Positions 2,713-18,952 of a stretch of 20,205 nt of DNA are shown piece by piece. Numbering within the stretch: position 1 is the stretch's first letter; the number at the start of each line of letters is the position of its first letter. A program made the position numbers and the translations under genes. A model generated the notes under the pieces. It was given only the letters and a program-made list of their open reading frames with translations, had not been told where the DNA came from and did not search any database. Origin of the DNA: a virus; IMG/VR virus record IMGVR_UViG_3300002835_001407, positions 1 through 20,205 of that record; one strand, written 5' to 3'.

Positions 2713-3675
2713 TCACCCGATAACCTTCCAGTTACTTCCACGCATGCCTTTACTCAAACGCATGTTCTGTGCAGCGTTTTGCCTGCCAAATCCAGTCATA
2801 GGCCTTCTTGCACCAGTCCTTAATGGCATATCTGCTGATTTTGCAAAACTTGCTCTTCCTGGTAAAAAAGCACCACCACCCATATCATACAAAGAATTTT
2901 GTGGTTGCTGAACTTGAGCAGGTTCATTTCCAAAATTTGTTAAATAATCCCCTATACCACTCAAAATCGGGGCAGCACCACCGATCAAATTTCCTGTTAA
3001 ATTTGATCTTTCTTCCCCTCTGCTTGCACGATAATCTGCTCGATTAGCACCCATATCCAACATCAAATTGCCCATGCGAGTACCAGCCGTTTGACCTCGT
3101 GATGCCAAATTACCTAAAGCCTCGTTTTCAGTGTTAAATTTATTTAAATTCCGAGTGTAAACATTGTTAAACTGACCCTCAGCCATACCTTGGCCATACT
3201 GAGTAGCTTCTTTTAATGCACGGCCACTGCCAAGCAAACCAGATGCTGCTGCTTGCGTATTCAAACCGCGTTGACCTTGTTCTACTGCAAACTGATACCC
3301 TGGATCGTTATACAAATCTGCTTGATTGAAATTAAAGCCTCCCATAAGGCGATCAGAGAGCCTCTGGTTGGCCTGCGTGCCCGTTTGGTAGTATGGGTTC
3401 AAAAGCTGAGAGGCTTGCTCTCCAGCCTTTAATTGCGCCTCTAAAATGCCCTTATCAACGGTCCGGTTGTTATAATAATTGTATAAACCACCACCAACCT
3501 GACCAATGCCCCCAGCAAGATCATTGCCACCGCCACCGCCACCGCCGCCTCCAAACAAAGAACCAGCCAATGCACCACCAGCAGGACCACCAAAATACAT
3601 ACCAGCAGCACCAGCGGCAATGGGAGCCACTTTTTTTAATGCCTTACCAACACCCTTAAATACTTTGCCGCCCAT
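2713..3675 (-). CDS. Phage DNA transfer/ejection protein (P22 gp7-like)
   Basis: A 320-residue protein starting with ATG at 3675 behind a GGGGAT SD. The N-terminus is basic and then Gly/Ala-rich (residues 1-60), with nine consecutive glycines at 42-50. The middle part (about 85-200) carries the recognisable podovirus DNA-transfer pattern: 'LLNPYYQTGTQANQRL', then 'DPGYQFAVEQGQRGLN', then 'AAASGLLGSGRALKEATQYGQGMA'. Such proteins are packaged in the capsid and leave with the DNA to help it cross the cell envelope. It is the first of three consecutive ejection-type genes, the P22 7-20-16 order. The C-terminal 70 residues are loosely structured and rich in Arg and Gly. Family assignment is fairly secure; equivalence to P22 gp7 itself is positional. 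Confidence 0.7.
   Translation of the reverse strand: MGGKVFKGVGKALKKVAPIAAGAAGMYFGGPAGGALAGSLFGGGGGGGGGNDLAGGIGQVGGGLYNYYNNRTVDKGILEAQLKAGEQASQLLNPYYQTGTQANQRLSDRLMGGFNFNQADLYNDPGYQFAVEQGQRGLNTQAAASGLLGSGRALKEATQYGQGMAEGQFNNVYTRNLNKFNTENEALGNLASRGQTAGTRMGNLMLDMGANRADYRASRGEERSNLTGNLIGGAAPILSGIGDYLTNFGNEPAQVQQPQNSLYDMGGGAFLPGRASFAKSADMPLRTGARRPMTGFGRQNAAQNMRLSKGMRGSNWKVIG
3526..3552 (-). repeat. GGC/GGT microsatellite coding nine glycines
   Basis: Nine glycine codons in a row in the gp7-like gene (residues 42-50), mostly GGC/GGT alternation seen on the plus strand as a ccaccg repeat. Its 27 bases are a multiple of three; slippage by single codons would only change linker length. Confidence 0.7.
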
Positions 3676-11745: not shown

Positions 11746-13019
11746 CCTGCACTCCAGTTTCCAAACGTATCCACAAGCCTTAGAGGCCTAGGCTCTTCAC
11801 GTCTTAGGTTCTTAAAGCCCTCACAGGCATACCGTAACGCATCAATGCAATGATCCGCCTGATTCTTTTCAAGCTCAGGCAACACCTTCCCGCTGTCTTT
11901 ATCCGTGGCATAGCTATAGAAAGACAACTCGTTTATTGTCTCTTCACACCGTGGATGCACCACAATCCTGTATCCCTTCAGCAACTCTATCCCCTCAATC
12001 ACGCTATTCTTGCCCTTAAGGCTTGGCATCACTTTAGGGAATCCATGACGTTTTAGATGCGATATGGTCTCAGGCCGTGATGAATCCGCCACGATAATAT
12101 ACCGCTGGCTCTCTGGTATGCTTAGGAACATCTTGGGCATGTCTATTGTCTCACACTGCTTAAGCACAAGCTCTTGGTCTATGTATAGTGTGCGCTCTTT
12201 CAGGTAACAGCGTATCAATACCGTGGGGTCTACACTAAAGCCAAAGTCACACCCAAACTGAAAGACAGCATCAGGGTCAGTATCAAAGGCCTTGATAGTC
12301 CAGTTGGTGAACACCGTCTTCTCATCTGGATCACTTGCAAACTGACCAAAGATAAACCGTTGTTTTTGTTGTTCATTCATATTCTCCATAAGCTGCTGGA
12401 TATAATCACTGGATATGTTCTGCACGTTATCGGCAGGATTTAGCACAAGCGATACATAATCACTAGGCGTGACGTGCTTTTCCTTGCTGTAGTAGTTTAT
12501 GCCTTGCACGAACATAGGGAAGGACCAGTGAGAGATATGCGGGGGATTCTGGTCGTAAAAGAACTTGTTCTTGGCCGCGCTCTTTTGGCTTAATCGTGAA
12601 TACATAAAAGACACGGTGCTAAACATCATCTCGCTGCATTCATTAAAATAGATGGTGGTGTATTCATTCCCCAACATCTTTTCCTTTGCGCCTTCATCCA
12701 CGCCCATAATCTCAATCATAGAACCGTTGGGGAAGGTGACAGTCATATCAGTCTTGTTCACCTTGAGAGCCACGCCAGCATACCTACTGGCTATCACATC
12801 TTGCACTGTGCCAAGCCATAACGAACGCCTTGCTGCTGTCTGTGTCTGCCTGATAATAGCGTGGCGCGTGTTCGGATACTTCAAGGCCCTAAGAAAGACC
12901 GTATGCGTTAAGAGAAACGTCTTACCAGAACGTGAACCGCCATAGAGCATGACATGCTTAGCATCGCTGCTAAGTAGCTTCAGAGCCTGTTTTTGCTTAT
13001 CCGTCCACGCAATAAGCAT
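11742..13019 (-). CDS. terL: Terminase large subunit (packaging ATPase and nuclease)
   Basis: A 425-residue protein. Walker A is 'GGSRSGKT' at 27-34; Walker B is 'TTIYFNE' at 121-127, with N126 and catalytic E127 ('FNECSEM' is a common variant in Terminase_3/PBSX-type subunits). The C-terminal RNase H-like nuclease shows D258 ('FGCDFGFSVDP'), D312 ('IIVADSSRPE') and the 'DHCIDALRY' motif (D389/D393). It cuts concatemeric DNA and drives it through the portal. Its ATG at 13019 shares a base with the stop of the small-subunit gene (TAATG), so the two are translationally coupled. All expected motifs are present. Confidence 0.93.
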   Translation of the reverse strand: MLIAWTDKQKQALKLLSSDAKHVMLYGGSRSGKTFLLTHTVFLRALKYPNTRHAIIRQTQTAARRSLWLGTVQDVIASRYAGVALKVNKTDMTVTFPNGSMIEIMGVDEGAKEKMLGNEYTTIYFNECSEMMFSTVSFMYSRLSQKSAAKNKFFYDQNPPHISHWSFPMFVQGINYYSKEKHVTPSDYVSLVLNPADNVQNISSDYIQQLMENMNEQQKQRFIFGQFASDPDEKTVFTNWTIKAFDTDPDAVFQFGCDFGFSVDPTVLIRCYLKERTLYIDQELVLKQCETIDMPKMFLSIPESQRYIIVADSSRPETISHLKRHGFPKVMPSLKGKNSVIEGIELLKGYRIVVHPRCEETINELSFYSYATDKDSGKVLPELEKNQADHCIDALRYACEGFKNLRREEPRPLRLVDTFGNWSAG

Positions 13020-13453
13020 TAAAGGTCCCTTTCATCAGGCGCAACAATAATAGGGTTGTCTTTCTGCCCACCGATATTGATTTTTGTGGCTTCATTAAAC
13101 CCATACATCGCGTTAAGCTCTTTTAAAGCCCCTGTGGCACCTTGTGCATGGTTTTGGTCCCTAGCTAGCTTGTATGTGTCCAACAGTGCCGTCATGGCCA
13201 TTTCACGGGTCCAAACAACACCTTGCTCTGCTCTTGCTTTCAAATCTGCAATCATCGCCGCAACATCACCGTTTTTAGCGACTTCATAAGCCTTGACTCT
13301 GTGCGTGTGTTTATTGTCTTTGGTTACATCATAAGCGTCTCTATATGAATCGACTTGAGATAATCCTTTAGCGATATTCCGAGCAAACTTCTCTTGCTTA
13401 GGTGTTAGCTTTTTCTTTTTGCTTTTCGTCGGCTTTTTATCTTTCTCATCCAT
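13019..13453 (-). CDS. terS: Terminase small subunit
   Basis: Read from the ATG at 13453 this is 144 residues. That start has a strong SD (GGGAGGA, four bases of spacing), whereas the in-frame ATG at 13486 has none, so I use 13453. A Lys-rich N-terminus (4-16) is followed by 'LTPKQEKFARNIAKGLSQVDSYRDAYDV', the DNA-binding helix-turn-helix opening of the Terminase_2 family, and by 'VAKNGDVAAMIADLKARAEQ', the family's next helix. It recognises phage DNA and hands it to the large subunit. It is the first gene of the leftward late operon, facing the divergent control region. Confidence 0.85.
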   Translation of the reverse strand: MDEKDKKPTKSKKKKLTPKQEKFARNIAKGLSQVDSYRDAYDVTKDNKHTHRVKAYEVAKNGDVAAMIADLKARAEQGVVWTREMAMTALLDTYKLARDQNHAQGATGALKELNAMYGFNEATKINIGGQKDNPIIVAPDERDL

Positions 13454-13473
13454 AAAATCCTCCCTTTTGTGTA

Positions 13474-13502
13474 TGTATGACAACAAAACCCTATAAAATC
13501 AA
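13474..13502 (-). promoter_or_regulatory. Possible leftward promoter of the terminase/late operon
   Basis: On the minus strand TTGATT (13502-13497) is followed after 17 bases by CATACA (13479-13474), about 20 bases upstream of the small terminase start. The -10 fits poorly (three of six), so this is weak; a phage-specific late activator site would also be possible. No other leftward candidate stands out. Confidence 0.25.
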
Positions 13503-13549
13503 GCCCTTTCTTTTTTCCTATTTTTTTTTCATTTTTTTGCATTTTCCTG

Positions 13550-13578
13550 TTGACATGCTGCAATAATTGCAGTATATC
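13550..13578 (+). promoter_or_regulatory. Rightward promoter P1 with a palindromic operator in the spacer
   Basis: A consensus -35 (TTGACA, 13550-13555) is followed by exactly 17 bases and TATATC (13573-13578). The spacer contains a perfect palindrome, CTGCAAT-A-ATTGCAG (13558-13572). A T-rich tract (about 13507-13547) just upstream resembles an UP element. The transcript would start near 13585 and lead into the gene at 13634. A dimeric repressor bound between -35 and -10 would block the polymerase. Confidence 0.75.
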
Positions 13579-13633
13579 TGTATATAACAACAACAACACA
13601 AGCGCTCAACACTCAACAAAGGAAACCAAGATC

Positions 13634-13879
13634 ATGACAGGATTTAAACCTTACCCTATCAAAGAAGCCCTAGAAATCATACAAAACGCGGAAAACGTTT
13701 ATGTTTTAGGACAAATATCTTTTAAAAAACCAAGCCCAGAAAGCAAGTTACGCCAGTATTCGTACTGTGTTGCCCTATCCAAAAAGGACAAAGCTGAAAT
13801 GATCAAAAAGTTTTCCGAATGGAGAGACGATCTAACAATGGACCTTGAAATAGACGGCGAAGAAATCTGTATCGGATAA
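13634..13879 (+). CDS. Unrecognised 81-residue protein, first gene of the rightward array
   Basis: Starts with ATG at 13634, preceded by an AAAGGAAACC leader that recurs before many genes of this block; the frame is open upstream to 13550 but that would run through the promoter, so the longer form is unlikely. The protein has an N-terminal helix ('IKEALEIIQNAENV'), a strand-rich middle ('VYVLGQISFKK', 'LRQYSYCVALS'), a charged helix ('KKDKAEMIKKFSEWRDDL') and an acidic C-terminal strand. There is no membrane segment or known motif. Being promoter-proximal behind P1 it should be made early and strongly once P1 is derepressed. Function unknown. Confidence 0.7.
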   Translation: MTGFKPYPIKEALEIIQNAENVYVLGQISFKKPSPESKLRQYSYCVALSKKDKAEMIKKFSEWRDDLTMDLEIDGEEICIG

Positions 13880-13951
13880 CACCATAACAACCTTTCCTTA
13901 ACCCCTTTTGTGTATTGTGTCTAAACACACACAACAAAAGGAACCCTAACC

Positions 13952-14014
13952 ATGTCTTTTCTTGAAACCCTATCCGTGATTGCCCTAGCCTTTTTTGTCT
14001 GGGGCAGCCACTAA
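13952..14014 (+). CDS. Very small (20-residue) hydrophobic peptide
   Basis: An ATG at 13952 preceded by AAAAGGAACCC, of the same type as its neighbours, opens a 20-codon frame ending TAA at 14012-14014. The peptide begins MSFLETLSV and continues as a hydrophobic helix rich in Ala and Phe, ending Trp-Gly-Ser-His. One short membrane-inserted helix is likely. The fitting leader, spacing between neighbours and clean stop argue for a real gene, but so short a frame could occur by chance. Confidence 0.5.
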   Translation: MSFLETLSVIALAFFVWGSH

Positions 14015-14041
14015 ACCAACACAACACAAAGGACCACAACC

Positions 14042-14233
14042 ATGAATCCCAAAATCACCCTAAAAATCACCAAAGGCAACGGCGGATACGTGCTGGGATA
14101 CCTTGTCAAATCAAACGGCAAAATCCTGTTCACAAAAAGAGAATCGTCGCAATTCGTTAGCAGACAAGCCGCCAACTACTACGGACAGTGCATCATCAAA
14201 GAAGCCACACAACTGGGATATTTCCCCGTTTGA
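14042..14233 (+). CDS. Unrecognised 63-residue protein
   Basis: ATG at 14042 follows an ACAAAGGACCACAACC leader. The product is basic and strand-rich at the N-terminus ('KITLKITKGNGGYVLGYLV', then 'GKILFTKRES') with a helix at 40-57 ('SRQAANYYGQCIIKEATQ'). It could be a small beta-hairpin-plus-helix domain; nothing points to a function. A frame beginning at 14103 on the same strand overlaps it, but that is the upstream open part of the next gene and lacks an SD. P2 lies 18 bases after its stop. Confidence 0.65.
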   Translation: MNPKITLKITKGNGGYVLGYLVKSNGKILFTKRESSQFVSRQAANYYGQCIIKEATQLGYFPV

Positions 14234-14250
14234 AAGATGCAATTTTTTCC

Positions 14251-14279
14251 TTTACATCCTGCAAGTATTGCCGTATTGT
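14251..14279 (+). promoter_or_regulatory. Rightward promoter P2 with a second copy of the operator
   Basis: TTTACA (14251-14256), 17-base spacer, TATTGT (14274-14279). The spacer holds CTGCAAGTATTGCCG (14259-14273), identical to the P1 palindrome at 12 of 15 positions and placed at the same offset (eight bases after the -35 begins). The leader ends in CAACAAAAGGAAACC before the ATG at 14310. P1 and P2 therefore look like duplicated, co-regulated promoters. Confidence 0.65.
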
Positions 14280-14309
14280 GTATCTATCATCAACAAAAGG
14301 AAACCAACC

Positions 14310-14699
14310 ATGACCAACATCGAAAACATAGAAAACAACATCGAATCCTTGGAAAACAGCTTGGAAAAGGCAAAAGCCGAGCTAGAATTTTCTAAATTCC
14401 TTTCGTGCTTTGAAGAGTTTATCCCAGATCCAAAAGGATCAAGCGAATACAATTCCTACAAATACAAAGCTTATAGAGAATCGCACCCAAACCGAATTGT
14501 TCAGTTTTTTTTAAAAGGCCGTCAATTTTTCATATCTGAACGTATTTTACGTAGTTTGCGTTTCACATGGCATGATAAAACCCGCACTATCACAATCCCT
14601 ATTGATAAAAAAACAAACGAATTTCTTAAAGATTTAAAGGATGTTCTAGAAAAACATAAGGATACTTTGGGTCCTATCACAAAGCATTCACCAGAATAA
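14310..14699 (+). CDS. Unrecognised 129-residue protein with N-terminal coiled coil
   Basis: I choose ATG at 14310, directly behind the AAAAGGAAACCAACC leader and the P2 promoter; the frame is open upstream to 14103 but that part has no SD and overlaps the previous gene. Residues 1-25 ('IENIENNIESLENSLEKAKAELE') form a heptad-like coiled coil. A globular part follows with 'NRIVQFFLKGRQFFISERILRSLRF' (about 63-87) and strands ending in 'ITIPIDKKT'. The C-terminal helix is Lys-rich. The basic 'KGRQFF...RILRSLRF' region might bind nucleic acid, but this is only a guess. First gene behind P2. Confidence 0.7.
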   Translation: MTNIENIENNIESLENSLEKAKAELEFSKFLSCFEEFIPDPKGSSEYNSYKYKAYRESHPNRIVQFFLKGRQFFISERILRSLRFTWHDKTRTITIPIDKKTNEFLKDLKDVLEKHKDTLGPITKHSPE

Positions 14700-14710
14700 G
14701 GAAACCAACC

Positions 14711-15148
14711 ATGACCGACGAAAACCCCTTAAAAACCCATTGCCTTGACGCACTAGAGGCACAACTTAATCGCAATCTTTTTGAAACAGAGCGTGAAACC
14801 CTAGACGTGATCTGCAATCTTTTGCCGCTGTATTATCACAGCCGCACGGGAGAACCACTTTATCCCAAGGTCAATGTTGCTCCGTCCCTTAGAAAGCTCG
14901 TTTTAACATGGGCCTTGCCTAGTATTGCTTACAATACATTTTCAATAAATTTTGGTGACGAAACCATCACAAACTATGTCATCAAAACACCTTATGAAAA
15001 CAAAGAAGTGCATCAAAAATTCTATCCAGACCTAAATAAAAGAAAGGAAATGGAACCAGCCTTTTTGTCAGGCCTTTATAAAGCCTACACCGATTTCTTT
15101 CTCGATCCCGACTATGAACCAAAACCCCAAAGGAACCATCACAAATGA
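14711..15148 (+). CDS. Unrecognised 145-residue soluble protein
   Basis: ATG at 14711 follows an AAGGAAACCAACC leader nearly identical to that of the preceding gene. The protein is mainly helical: 'HCLDALEAQLNRNLFETERETLDVICNLLPLYY' (10-42), a hydrophobic central part ('LRKLVLTWALPSIAYNTFSINFG'), and an acidic-aromatic end ('LYKAYTDFFLDPDYEPKPQ'). There is no clear transmembrane helix and no motif I recognise. Its stop overlaps the start of the HTH gene by ATGA (15145-15148), so the two are coupled, which suggests a functional pair. Confidence 0.7.
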   Translation: MTDENPLKTHCLDALEAQLNRNLFETERETLDVICNLLPLYYHSRTGEPLYPKVNVAPSLRKLVLTWALPSIAYNTFSINFGDETITNYVIKTPYENKEVHQKFYPDLNKRKEMEPAFLSGLYKAYTDFFLDPDYEPKPQRNHHK

Positions 15149-15336
15149 CACCCGAGCAATTTAAACAAGCAAGGCTACACTTGGGCGTCAGTCAAACAGG
15201 ACTATGCGCTCTTATAGAAAAATGCGTTCGCACGATCCGATCCTATGAATCCGGCGAATACCCCATCCCCAAATCCATGGAACTGCTTATCAAACACCTT
15301 ATCAAACAAAAGGATCAATCCAATGAACCAAAATAA
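15145..15336 (+). CDS. XRE-type helix-turn-helix DNA-binding protein
   Basis: A 63-residue protein that is essentially one HTH domain: 'MTPEQFKQARLHLGVSQTGLCALIEKCVRTIRSYESGEYPIP' (1-42) matches the phage/XRE pattern (helix 2 'SQTGLCALI', recognition helix 'CVRTIRSYESG'). It has no second domain for ligand binding or RecA-stimulated cleavage, so it is closer to a small Cro-like or accessory regulator. It lies inside the operon controlled by P1/P2 and is coupled to the preceding gene. It is one candidate to bind the CTGCAAT-A-ATTGCAG operator, but nothing here proves it. Confidence 0.8.
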   Translation: MTPEQFKQARLHLGVSQTGLCALIEKCVRTIRSYESGEYPIPKSMELLIKHLIKQKDQSNEPK

Positions 15337-15583
15337 CATTCTCACTTTTTCAATGATTGACAATCTCATCAATCAAATCTTTGGACAAACCGATGAACGC
15401 GAAAAACTGCAAGCCTTCGCCGCCCGTATTTTACTAGAGCAACAGAAACTCAATAGCCCATGCCTAACCAACCAATGGGGTAAAGAACACGCAGAAACGT
15501 CTTACGGCTACCGAGAATACAACCCCTATAGCCCCTTTAAATTCCCCATCATGACCCACCAAATCAAGGGAAACCAACCATGA
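15323..15583 (+). CDS. Unrecognised 86-residue protein
   Basis: I choose ATG at 15323, which has AAAGGATC upstream and overlaps the end of the HTH gene by 14 bases; a longer frame back to 15245 would run deep inside that gene. The N-terminal half is helical ('SMIDNLINQIFGQTDEREKLQAFAARILLEQQKL', 10-43). The C-terminal half is rich in Tyr, Asn and Pro ('YGYREYNPYSPFKFP') and probably poorly ordered. No known domain. The stop overlaps the next start (ATGA at 15580-15583). Confidence 0.65.
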   Translation: MNQNNILTFSMIDNLINQIFGQTDEREKLQAFAARILLEQQKLNSPCLTNQWGKEHAETSYGYREYNPYSPFKFPIMTHQIKGNQP

Positions 15584-18344: not shown

Positions 18345-18516
18345 ATTGGTGCCTCGCCCAAAACATAAAAAACCCTGCAAATCCAAACAAAAGCGCAAAA
18401 TCTACTAGGGAACGATTCTCAAAACCAAAAAGAATACCCGCAAAATACAAAGCCGTAACCCCGAACCAAAAGAAAATAAACATTTTCTCAATGCAAACAA
18501 ACAGCTTTTTAAGCAT
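18331..18516 (-). CDS. Small membrane protein, 61 residues
   Basis: ATG at 18516 overlaps the previous stop by eight bases; AGGGAT lies upstream. Two helices at about 12-31 and 36-53 are aromatic-rich ('FIFFWFGVTALYFAG', 'ALLFGFAGFFMFW') and end in 'ARHQYESR'. It precedes another two-helix membrane gene, so the two may form a complex. No family recognised. Confidence 0.55.
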   Translation of the reverse strand: MLKKLFVCIEKMFIFFWFGVTALYFAGILFGFENRSLVDFALLFGFAGFFMFWARHQYESR

Positions 18517-18952
18517 TTTTGTTATCCCTGATAGAGAAAGATTCAACCATACGGCCAACTCTGCGCCCCCCGTATGTCGTGTTACTTTTTAAAATGGCCT
18601 TAGAACACAAAGACCGAAGCAGGTTTGATGTTTTGCTTATGTCTATACCTGACCGATCACATATAGACCTACGGGTAGGCACAATGCCTTCCTCAGTTAG
18701 CTGTTTTATGGTGTCTAAAATTAACTGCTTTTCAGAAAAATGCTTCGAGTGTCCGTGTTCATATTCCTTTAGTAAAACATCATCTACACGGGGCCCGTCA
18801 AACTCCTCTAAAACCGCATACGCAAAACGCACAAGATCGTCATGGTCTTTAATATAAGCGTCGCTCATATTTGTAAACTTCCTCAATAACTGGCTTGGCT
18901 CCCCAAAAGTTTCCTTGATAACCTTTGAGATTCTCTCGTATTTATGCGTCAT
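18509..18952 (-). CDS. Winged-helix DNA-binding protein, 147 residues
   Basis: ATG at 18952 has GAGGAAAG upstream and overlaps the previous gene by 11 bases; a frame reaching 18985 would overlap more. Residues 1-65 are helical and charged. Residues 74-122 ('KQLILDTIKQLTEEGIVPTRRSICDRSGIDISKTSNLLRSLCSKAIL') form a classic wHTH: helix 1, a 'PTRRSI' start of helix 2, 'DISKTSNLLRSL' as recognition helix; then a Gly/Arg wing ('YGGRRVGRMVESFSI', 127-141). It could be a transcription regulator or a replication-origin binder; neighbours favour replication or early control. Confidence 0.75.
   Translation of the reverse strand: MTHKYERISKVIKETFGEPSQLLRKFTNMSDAYIKDHDDLVRFAYAVLEEFDGPRVDDVLLKEYEHGHSKHFSEKQLILDTIKQLTEEGIVPTRRSICDRSGIDISKTSNLLRSLCSKAILKSNTTYGGRRVGRMVESFSIRDNKNA

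Follow-up and report, generated by a model that had tools for sequence, protein, structure and literature searches.

A conserved palindrome inside early promoters of uncultured phages and a small HTH protein as its candidate repressor

A 20,205-base virus record carrying phage terminase and portal genes, analysed here at its full length (the window), contains a promoter with a palindrome between its -35 and -10 hexamers. This raises the question of whether the palindrome is a regulatory site and, if so, which protein reads it. On the plus strand, the -35 hexamer TTGACA (13550-13555), a perfect match, is followed by the 17-nt spacer TGCTGCAATAATTGCAG (13556-13572), whose 3' part is the 15-base palindrome CTGCAATAATTGCAG (13558-13572), and by the -10 hexamer TATATC (13573-13578). 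Reading and indexing of the sequence confirmed that the palindrome is perfect, as an earlier note on this DNA had claimed, and its symmetry reaches 21 bp with one mismatched pair (ATGCTGCAATAATTGCAGTAT). The same note spoke of a consensus promoter; the hexamers and their spacing are as it described, but TATATC matches TATAAT at only 4 of 6 positions, which makes the term slightly generous. Because this 4/6 match lacks the final T, a consensus promoter scan of the window did not list the promoter. In most relatives the -10 is TATNNT at identical spacing, and the -35 occupies the same position. A T-rich tract at about 13507-13546, 5' of the -35 on the same strand, is a possible UP-like element, and a T-rich or T8A7 tract likewise lies 5' of the first-position sites in relatives. 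A structured RNA element was rejected, since an Rfam search of positions 13400-15400 gave no match.

By itself the palindrome proves nothing, because the window contains two odd-centred palindromes with 7-bp arms and shuffled sequence contains 1.77 on average. It is ordinary for the window; its location in the spacer and its conservation are not. The chance of such a palindrome falling inside a given 17-nt spacer of the local composition is about 3e-4, and conservation is stronger evidence than this figure that the site is real. A large-terminase search gathered relatives at 35 loci in IMG/VR, and most of those with enough upstream sequence carry CTGCAATWATTGCAG or a near copy in the same promoter. 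Across the fetched records of uncultured relatives there are 37 distinct related sites, placed between -35 and -10. Since the search pattern for this collection prescribed most core positions, CTGCA and ATTGC are invariant in part through selection; the unbiased view of conservation comes from promoters found via TTGACA and a loose -10 alone. Many relatives' copies carry one or two mismatches; perfection holds for the copy in the window. When up to three mismatches were allowed, the longer records showed two to four sites per genome, only in the early array of small genes, where they sit upstream of gene blocks and all face the array. The sites, their position, copy number and conservation, and the order of the genes are direct observations. 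A phage DNA search gave no match, and the GTDB species genomes, a thin sample of one genome per species, yielded no match to the site or the terminase and no host. We conclude that the palindrome is genuine and conserved, and take it for a switch site within early promoters.

The window contains a second promoter-operator, overlooked in the earlier note, in which TTTACA, TCCTGCAAGTATTGCCG and TATTGT keep the full spacing on the plus strand (14251-14279), with CTGCAAGTATTGCCG at 14259-14273 as the operator. Just 5' of the -35 at this second class of sites, at 14226-14250 in the window and at the equivalent positions in relatives, lies a conserved stretch that resembles ATGCAATTTCTTCC and includes TGCAAT, similar to a half-site. 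The array itself runs on the plus strand. Its first gene encodes 81 aa (13634-13879, within a listed ORF), has no Pfam or PHROG match and has homologues in relatives. It is followed by an ORF of 63 aa (14042-14233), conserved in relatives' arrays and distinct from the HTH gene. A 129-aa gene lies 3' of the second promoter (14310-14699), and the end of a 145-aa ORF (14711-15148) overlaps by 4 bases the start of an ORF for a 63-residue Xre-type HTH protein (HTH63; 15145-15336). The array genes are small and variable, and those directly behind each promoter vary between relatives. Most of 29 array proteins have no family; one matches a RusA-like resolvase and another a clamp-like family, so we read the array as an early region with accessory and probably some DNA-metabolism genes. 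Known Acr genes were rejected, since no Acr family was found among the 29 proteins in Pfam, NCBIfam and PHROGs; the array may hold unrecognised Acrs.

On the other side of the promoter, the divergent structural operon begins with the terminase small subunit gene (13019-13453, minus strand; PHROG match). The earlier note had suggested that one bound regulator could switch this operon together with the array, an idea that did not hold. In the conserved sequence before the terminase operon, a -35-like TTGATT lies on the minus strand (13502-13497), about 65 bp away from the centre of the palindrome, and no palindrome copy is present there; every site is directed towards the small-gene array. We therefore rejected the idea that this operator also controls the terminase operon.

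Two proteins had been put forward as binders, HTH63 and a winged-helix protein (18509-18952). The latter is an unlikely reader of the operator, because in G001, G006 and G007, which retain the site, nothing beyond its N-terminal third can be recognised. Past that third, the winged-helix gene is truncated or replaced in several relatives, which suggests domain exchange. The proposal of a regulator site inside the promoter, with HTH63 as its best candidate binder, is supported at the sequence level by conservation, gene order and co-divergence. In arrays with sites of the window's type (type A), the HTH63 gene lies 3' of the last operator. Among phages with that palindrome the protein is 82-100% identical, and G009 falls within this range although its best TerL segment is only 54% identical. 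An AlphaFold model of HTH63 has a four-helix Xre fold (pLDDT 92), and its PDB matches include C proteins, MqsA, HigA, P2 C and the anti-CRISPR-associated (Aca) proteins Aca1, Aca2, Aca7 and Aca10, none with E <0.001. The HTH family profile matched Aca10 (E 9.6e-6) and Aca2 (E 3e-5), and the HTH63 sequence alone matched Aca10 weakly (E 0.013). The fold does not single out Aca, because the profile scores similarly against 434 repressor, C proteins and HigA and no PDB match passes that E-value.

G002/G003 and G017/G018 have the same -35/-10 layout with different inverted repeats, GGAAATAGTTTC in G002/G003 and ACGCAAAGAATGCG in G017, and no copy of the type A site was found in G002/G003. The type B and type C repeats are imperfect. 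In G002, G003 and G017, where the HTH gene is covered, HTH63 identity is about 35-41%, and the presumed DNA-reading helix has changed as well. The identity of other shared genes remains high, with 90% for the 81-aa gene in G002 and 80-81% for a 99-aa gene in G002 and G003. Other early genes diverged too (52-58% for a 64-aa gene), and a 92-aa HTH protein, 52% identical in G002, shows the same divergence pattern as HTH63. The comparison, which covers two switched lineages, suggests that HTH63 and its operator may have been exchanged in coordination. As to the 92-aa HTH-like protein, its gene in G007 lies at L062 11035-11313 (minus strand), and it is 98-100% conserved in most relatives. Separately, the spacer repeats TGCACAATGTGCG of G019 (L082, 5934) and GCACAGTGTGC of G017 (L080, 5346) resemble the published Aca1 sites GGCACAATGTGCC and GGCACACTGTGCC.

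A search with the HTH profile returned 80 viral loci. Several unrelated ones contain promoters in which other inverted repeats stand between TTGACA and TATA: GGGCCAGTGGCCC (L114), TAGGCAATGCTTGCCTA (L126) and AGGTACATTGTACCT (L106). Paracoccus phage Pkon1 (L169 4239-4713) has a perfect 17-bp palindrome, TAGCGCCATTGGCGCTA, in the spacer of a TTGACA promoter, and Pasteurella phages Pmp12 (L167 about 2825-3626) and Pm86 (L168 about 2805-3596) carry TGTTCTAACCTTAGAACA and TGTTCTGATCTTAGAACA. Behind the Pkon1 promoter, p72-p71 form a two-gene unit with the Xre protein last that looks acr-aca-type; the Pasteurella phage repeats lie 5' of a small gene and the HTH gene, with a promoter-like spacer in Pmp12. 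We scored spacer palindromes in 22 clusters of the HTH family, drawn from viral contigs as well as named phages, with 100 shuffles and the opposite strand as controls. A register-free score of at least 7 was reached by 6 of the 22 clusters; the shuffles averaged 0.46 (at most 3 in any of the 100), and the opposite strand gave 1. A score of at least 6 was reached by 7 clusters, versus a shuffle mean of 1.43 (maximum 4) and 2 for the opposite strand. A fixed register gave 5 clusters against 0.06 expected, but that register was picked with the hits in view, and more weight belongs to the register-free counts. When a single representative stood for each cluster, 4 of the 22 scored at least 6, and none did on the opposite strand. 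None of the type B, type C and 29-member clusters reaches significance on its own. As judged from sequence comparison, the association of HTH homologues with spacer palindromes is real but not universal, because two of the six register-free cases are centred outside the common register (the L113 hit and the L168 hit, which scores equal to the in-register L167) and many of the 22 clusters have no clear spacer palindrome. A wider reading, possible but rather doubtful, is that repressor and operator form an exchangeable specificity pair. The HTH family would then spread through unrelated phages with matching spacer palindromes in fixed register and mark islands of regulated early genes, some perhaps for anti-defence, which the promoter-operator signature could help to find.

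For the phages of the window's type, we consider it likely that the palindrome is an operator in a strong early promoter and that a dimer of HTH63, made from the same operons, binds it and shuts off all two to four early promoters. Bound to the inverted repeat of 15-21 bp in the spacer, the dimer would exclude RNA polymerase, the mode we think most likely because the Aca10 dimer and the core-promoter repeats of Aca families are worked examples. HTH63 would be encoded at the end of the block transcribed from the operator-bearing promoters. Upon infection, the early promoters would fire unrepressed, and accumulating HTH63, as an autorepressor, would then turn off every site-bearing early promoter, including that of its own gene, in a negative feedback. 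Binding, dimerisation, repression, early timing, shared transcripts and promoter activity are what we infer here. For uncultured phages, the locus defines a candidate pair of repressor and operator that can be tested, together with a putative early regulon of several promoters. Its promoter-operator signature points to early accessory genes, and with the naturally occurring variants of the palindrome one could test directly which protein residues set operator specificity.

Another phage protein could read the operator while HTH63 acts elsewhere, above all the 92-aa HTH protein, whose identity is 98-100% among genomes that carry this palindrome and 52% in G002, where the palindrome differs. We find this unlikely: in G001 its gene is on the opposite strand at a distance of about 10 kb, and the protein has no significant HTH match in Pfam. 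The evidence from unrelated phages concerns HTH63 homologues, but the comparison is uneven, since the search with the 92-aa protein matched close relatives only and could not tell the two candidates apart. Equally phage-centred is the notion of a lysogeny (immunity) operator at which a CI-like repressor silences the prophage. The placing of operators in early promoters and the existence of lineages whose palindromes differ do recall immunity groups, and G007 encodes Erf and O-like replication proteins beside an SU10-type portal and capsid and a lysozyme. Yet this 38.5-kb genome is almost complete, its two ends lying about 20-30 bases apart within one array gene, and no integration or lysogeny gene and no integrase or recombinase family was seen among its ORFs of at least 60 aa and all but the weakest PHROG rows. 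With no divergent repressor promoter seen beside the operators and the GTDB result given above (one genome per species), we hold an immunity operator to be quite improbable.

Binding of the site by a regulator of the host, for example a LexA-like or global repressor, is very improbable. The CTG...CAG ends recall LexA boxes, but the site is CTG-N9-CAG and the gammaproteobacterial box, as generally known, is CTGT-N8-ACAG; moreover, closely related phages have other repeats at this position, and their own HTH protein has diverged as well. A chance palindrome in an ordinary promoter is hardly credible. About 1.8 such palindromes are expected per window, but 37 distinct sites at a fixed position, the low chance per spacer and the conservation contradict it.

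The proposed repression by HTH63 can be set beside several known systems. Lambdoid Cro, acting at OR1 of PR, is likewise a small HTH protein that represses early promoters from an operator in the -35/-10 spacer; the difference is that no paired CI gene, tripartite operator or integrase was seen here. The MqsA C-terminal HTH domain (TIGR03830) matches 14 of 14 aligned HTH members, but in the HTH part only. The window protein scores 30.9 bits against a curated cut-off of 61.8, below what MqsRA assignment takes, and no MqsR toxin was identified in the analysis. In archaeal viruses, conserved early regulatory sequences are reported to have been used to find anti-defence genes (PMC11065993). The likeness is a shared regulatory sequence ahead of diverse early small genes, whereas here the element is a bacterial sigma-70-type promoter with an operator and an anti-defence role is only possible. 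In the bacterial Aca families surveyed, an inverted repeat lies within the core promoter (PMC9410906), and the Aca10 dimer binds a 21-bp palindrome between TTGCAA and TATTCT, the -35 and -10 of its own operon (PMC9410881). Like Aca1, Aca2 and Aca10 (PMC9410906, PMC9410881), HTH63 is a small Xre-fold HTH protein encoded in the operon it would regulate, with an inverted repeat apparently inside the strong core promoter of that operon; as with Aca10, the repeat stands between -35 and -10 and runs into the -10. Unlike the Aca operons, the window's array contains no known acr gene, some of its genes look like replication or recombination genes, and phages of this type have two to four operator promoters each. 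Because no Acr family occurs in the operon, we do not file HTH63 as an Aca. Negative feedback by an operon-encoded HTH protein is an established type of regulation, and most likely these uncultured phages use it, as do, with less uniformity, some unrelated phages.
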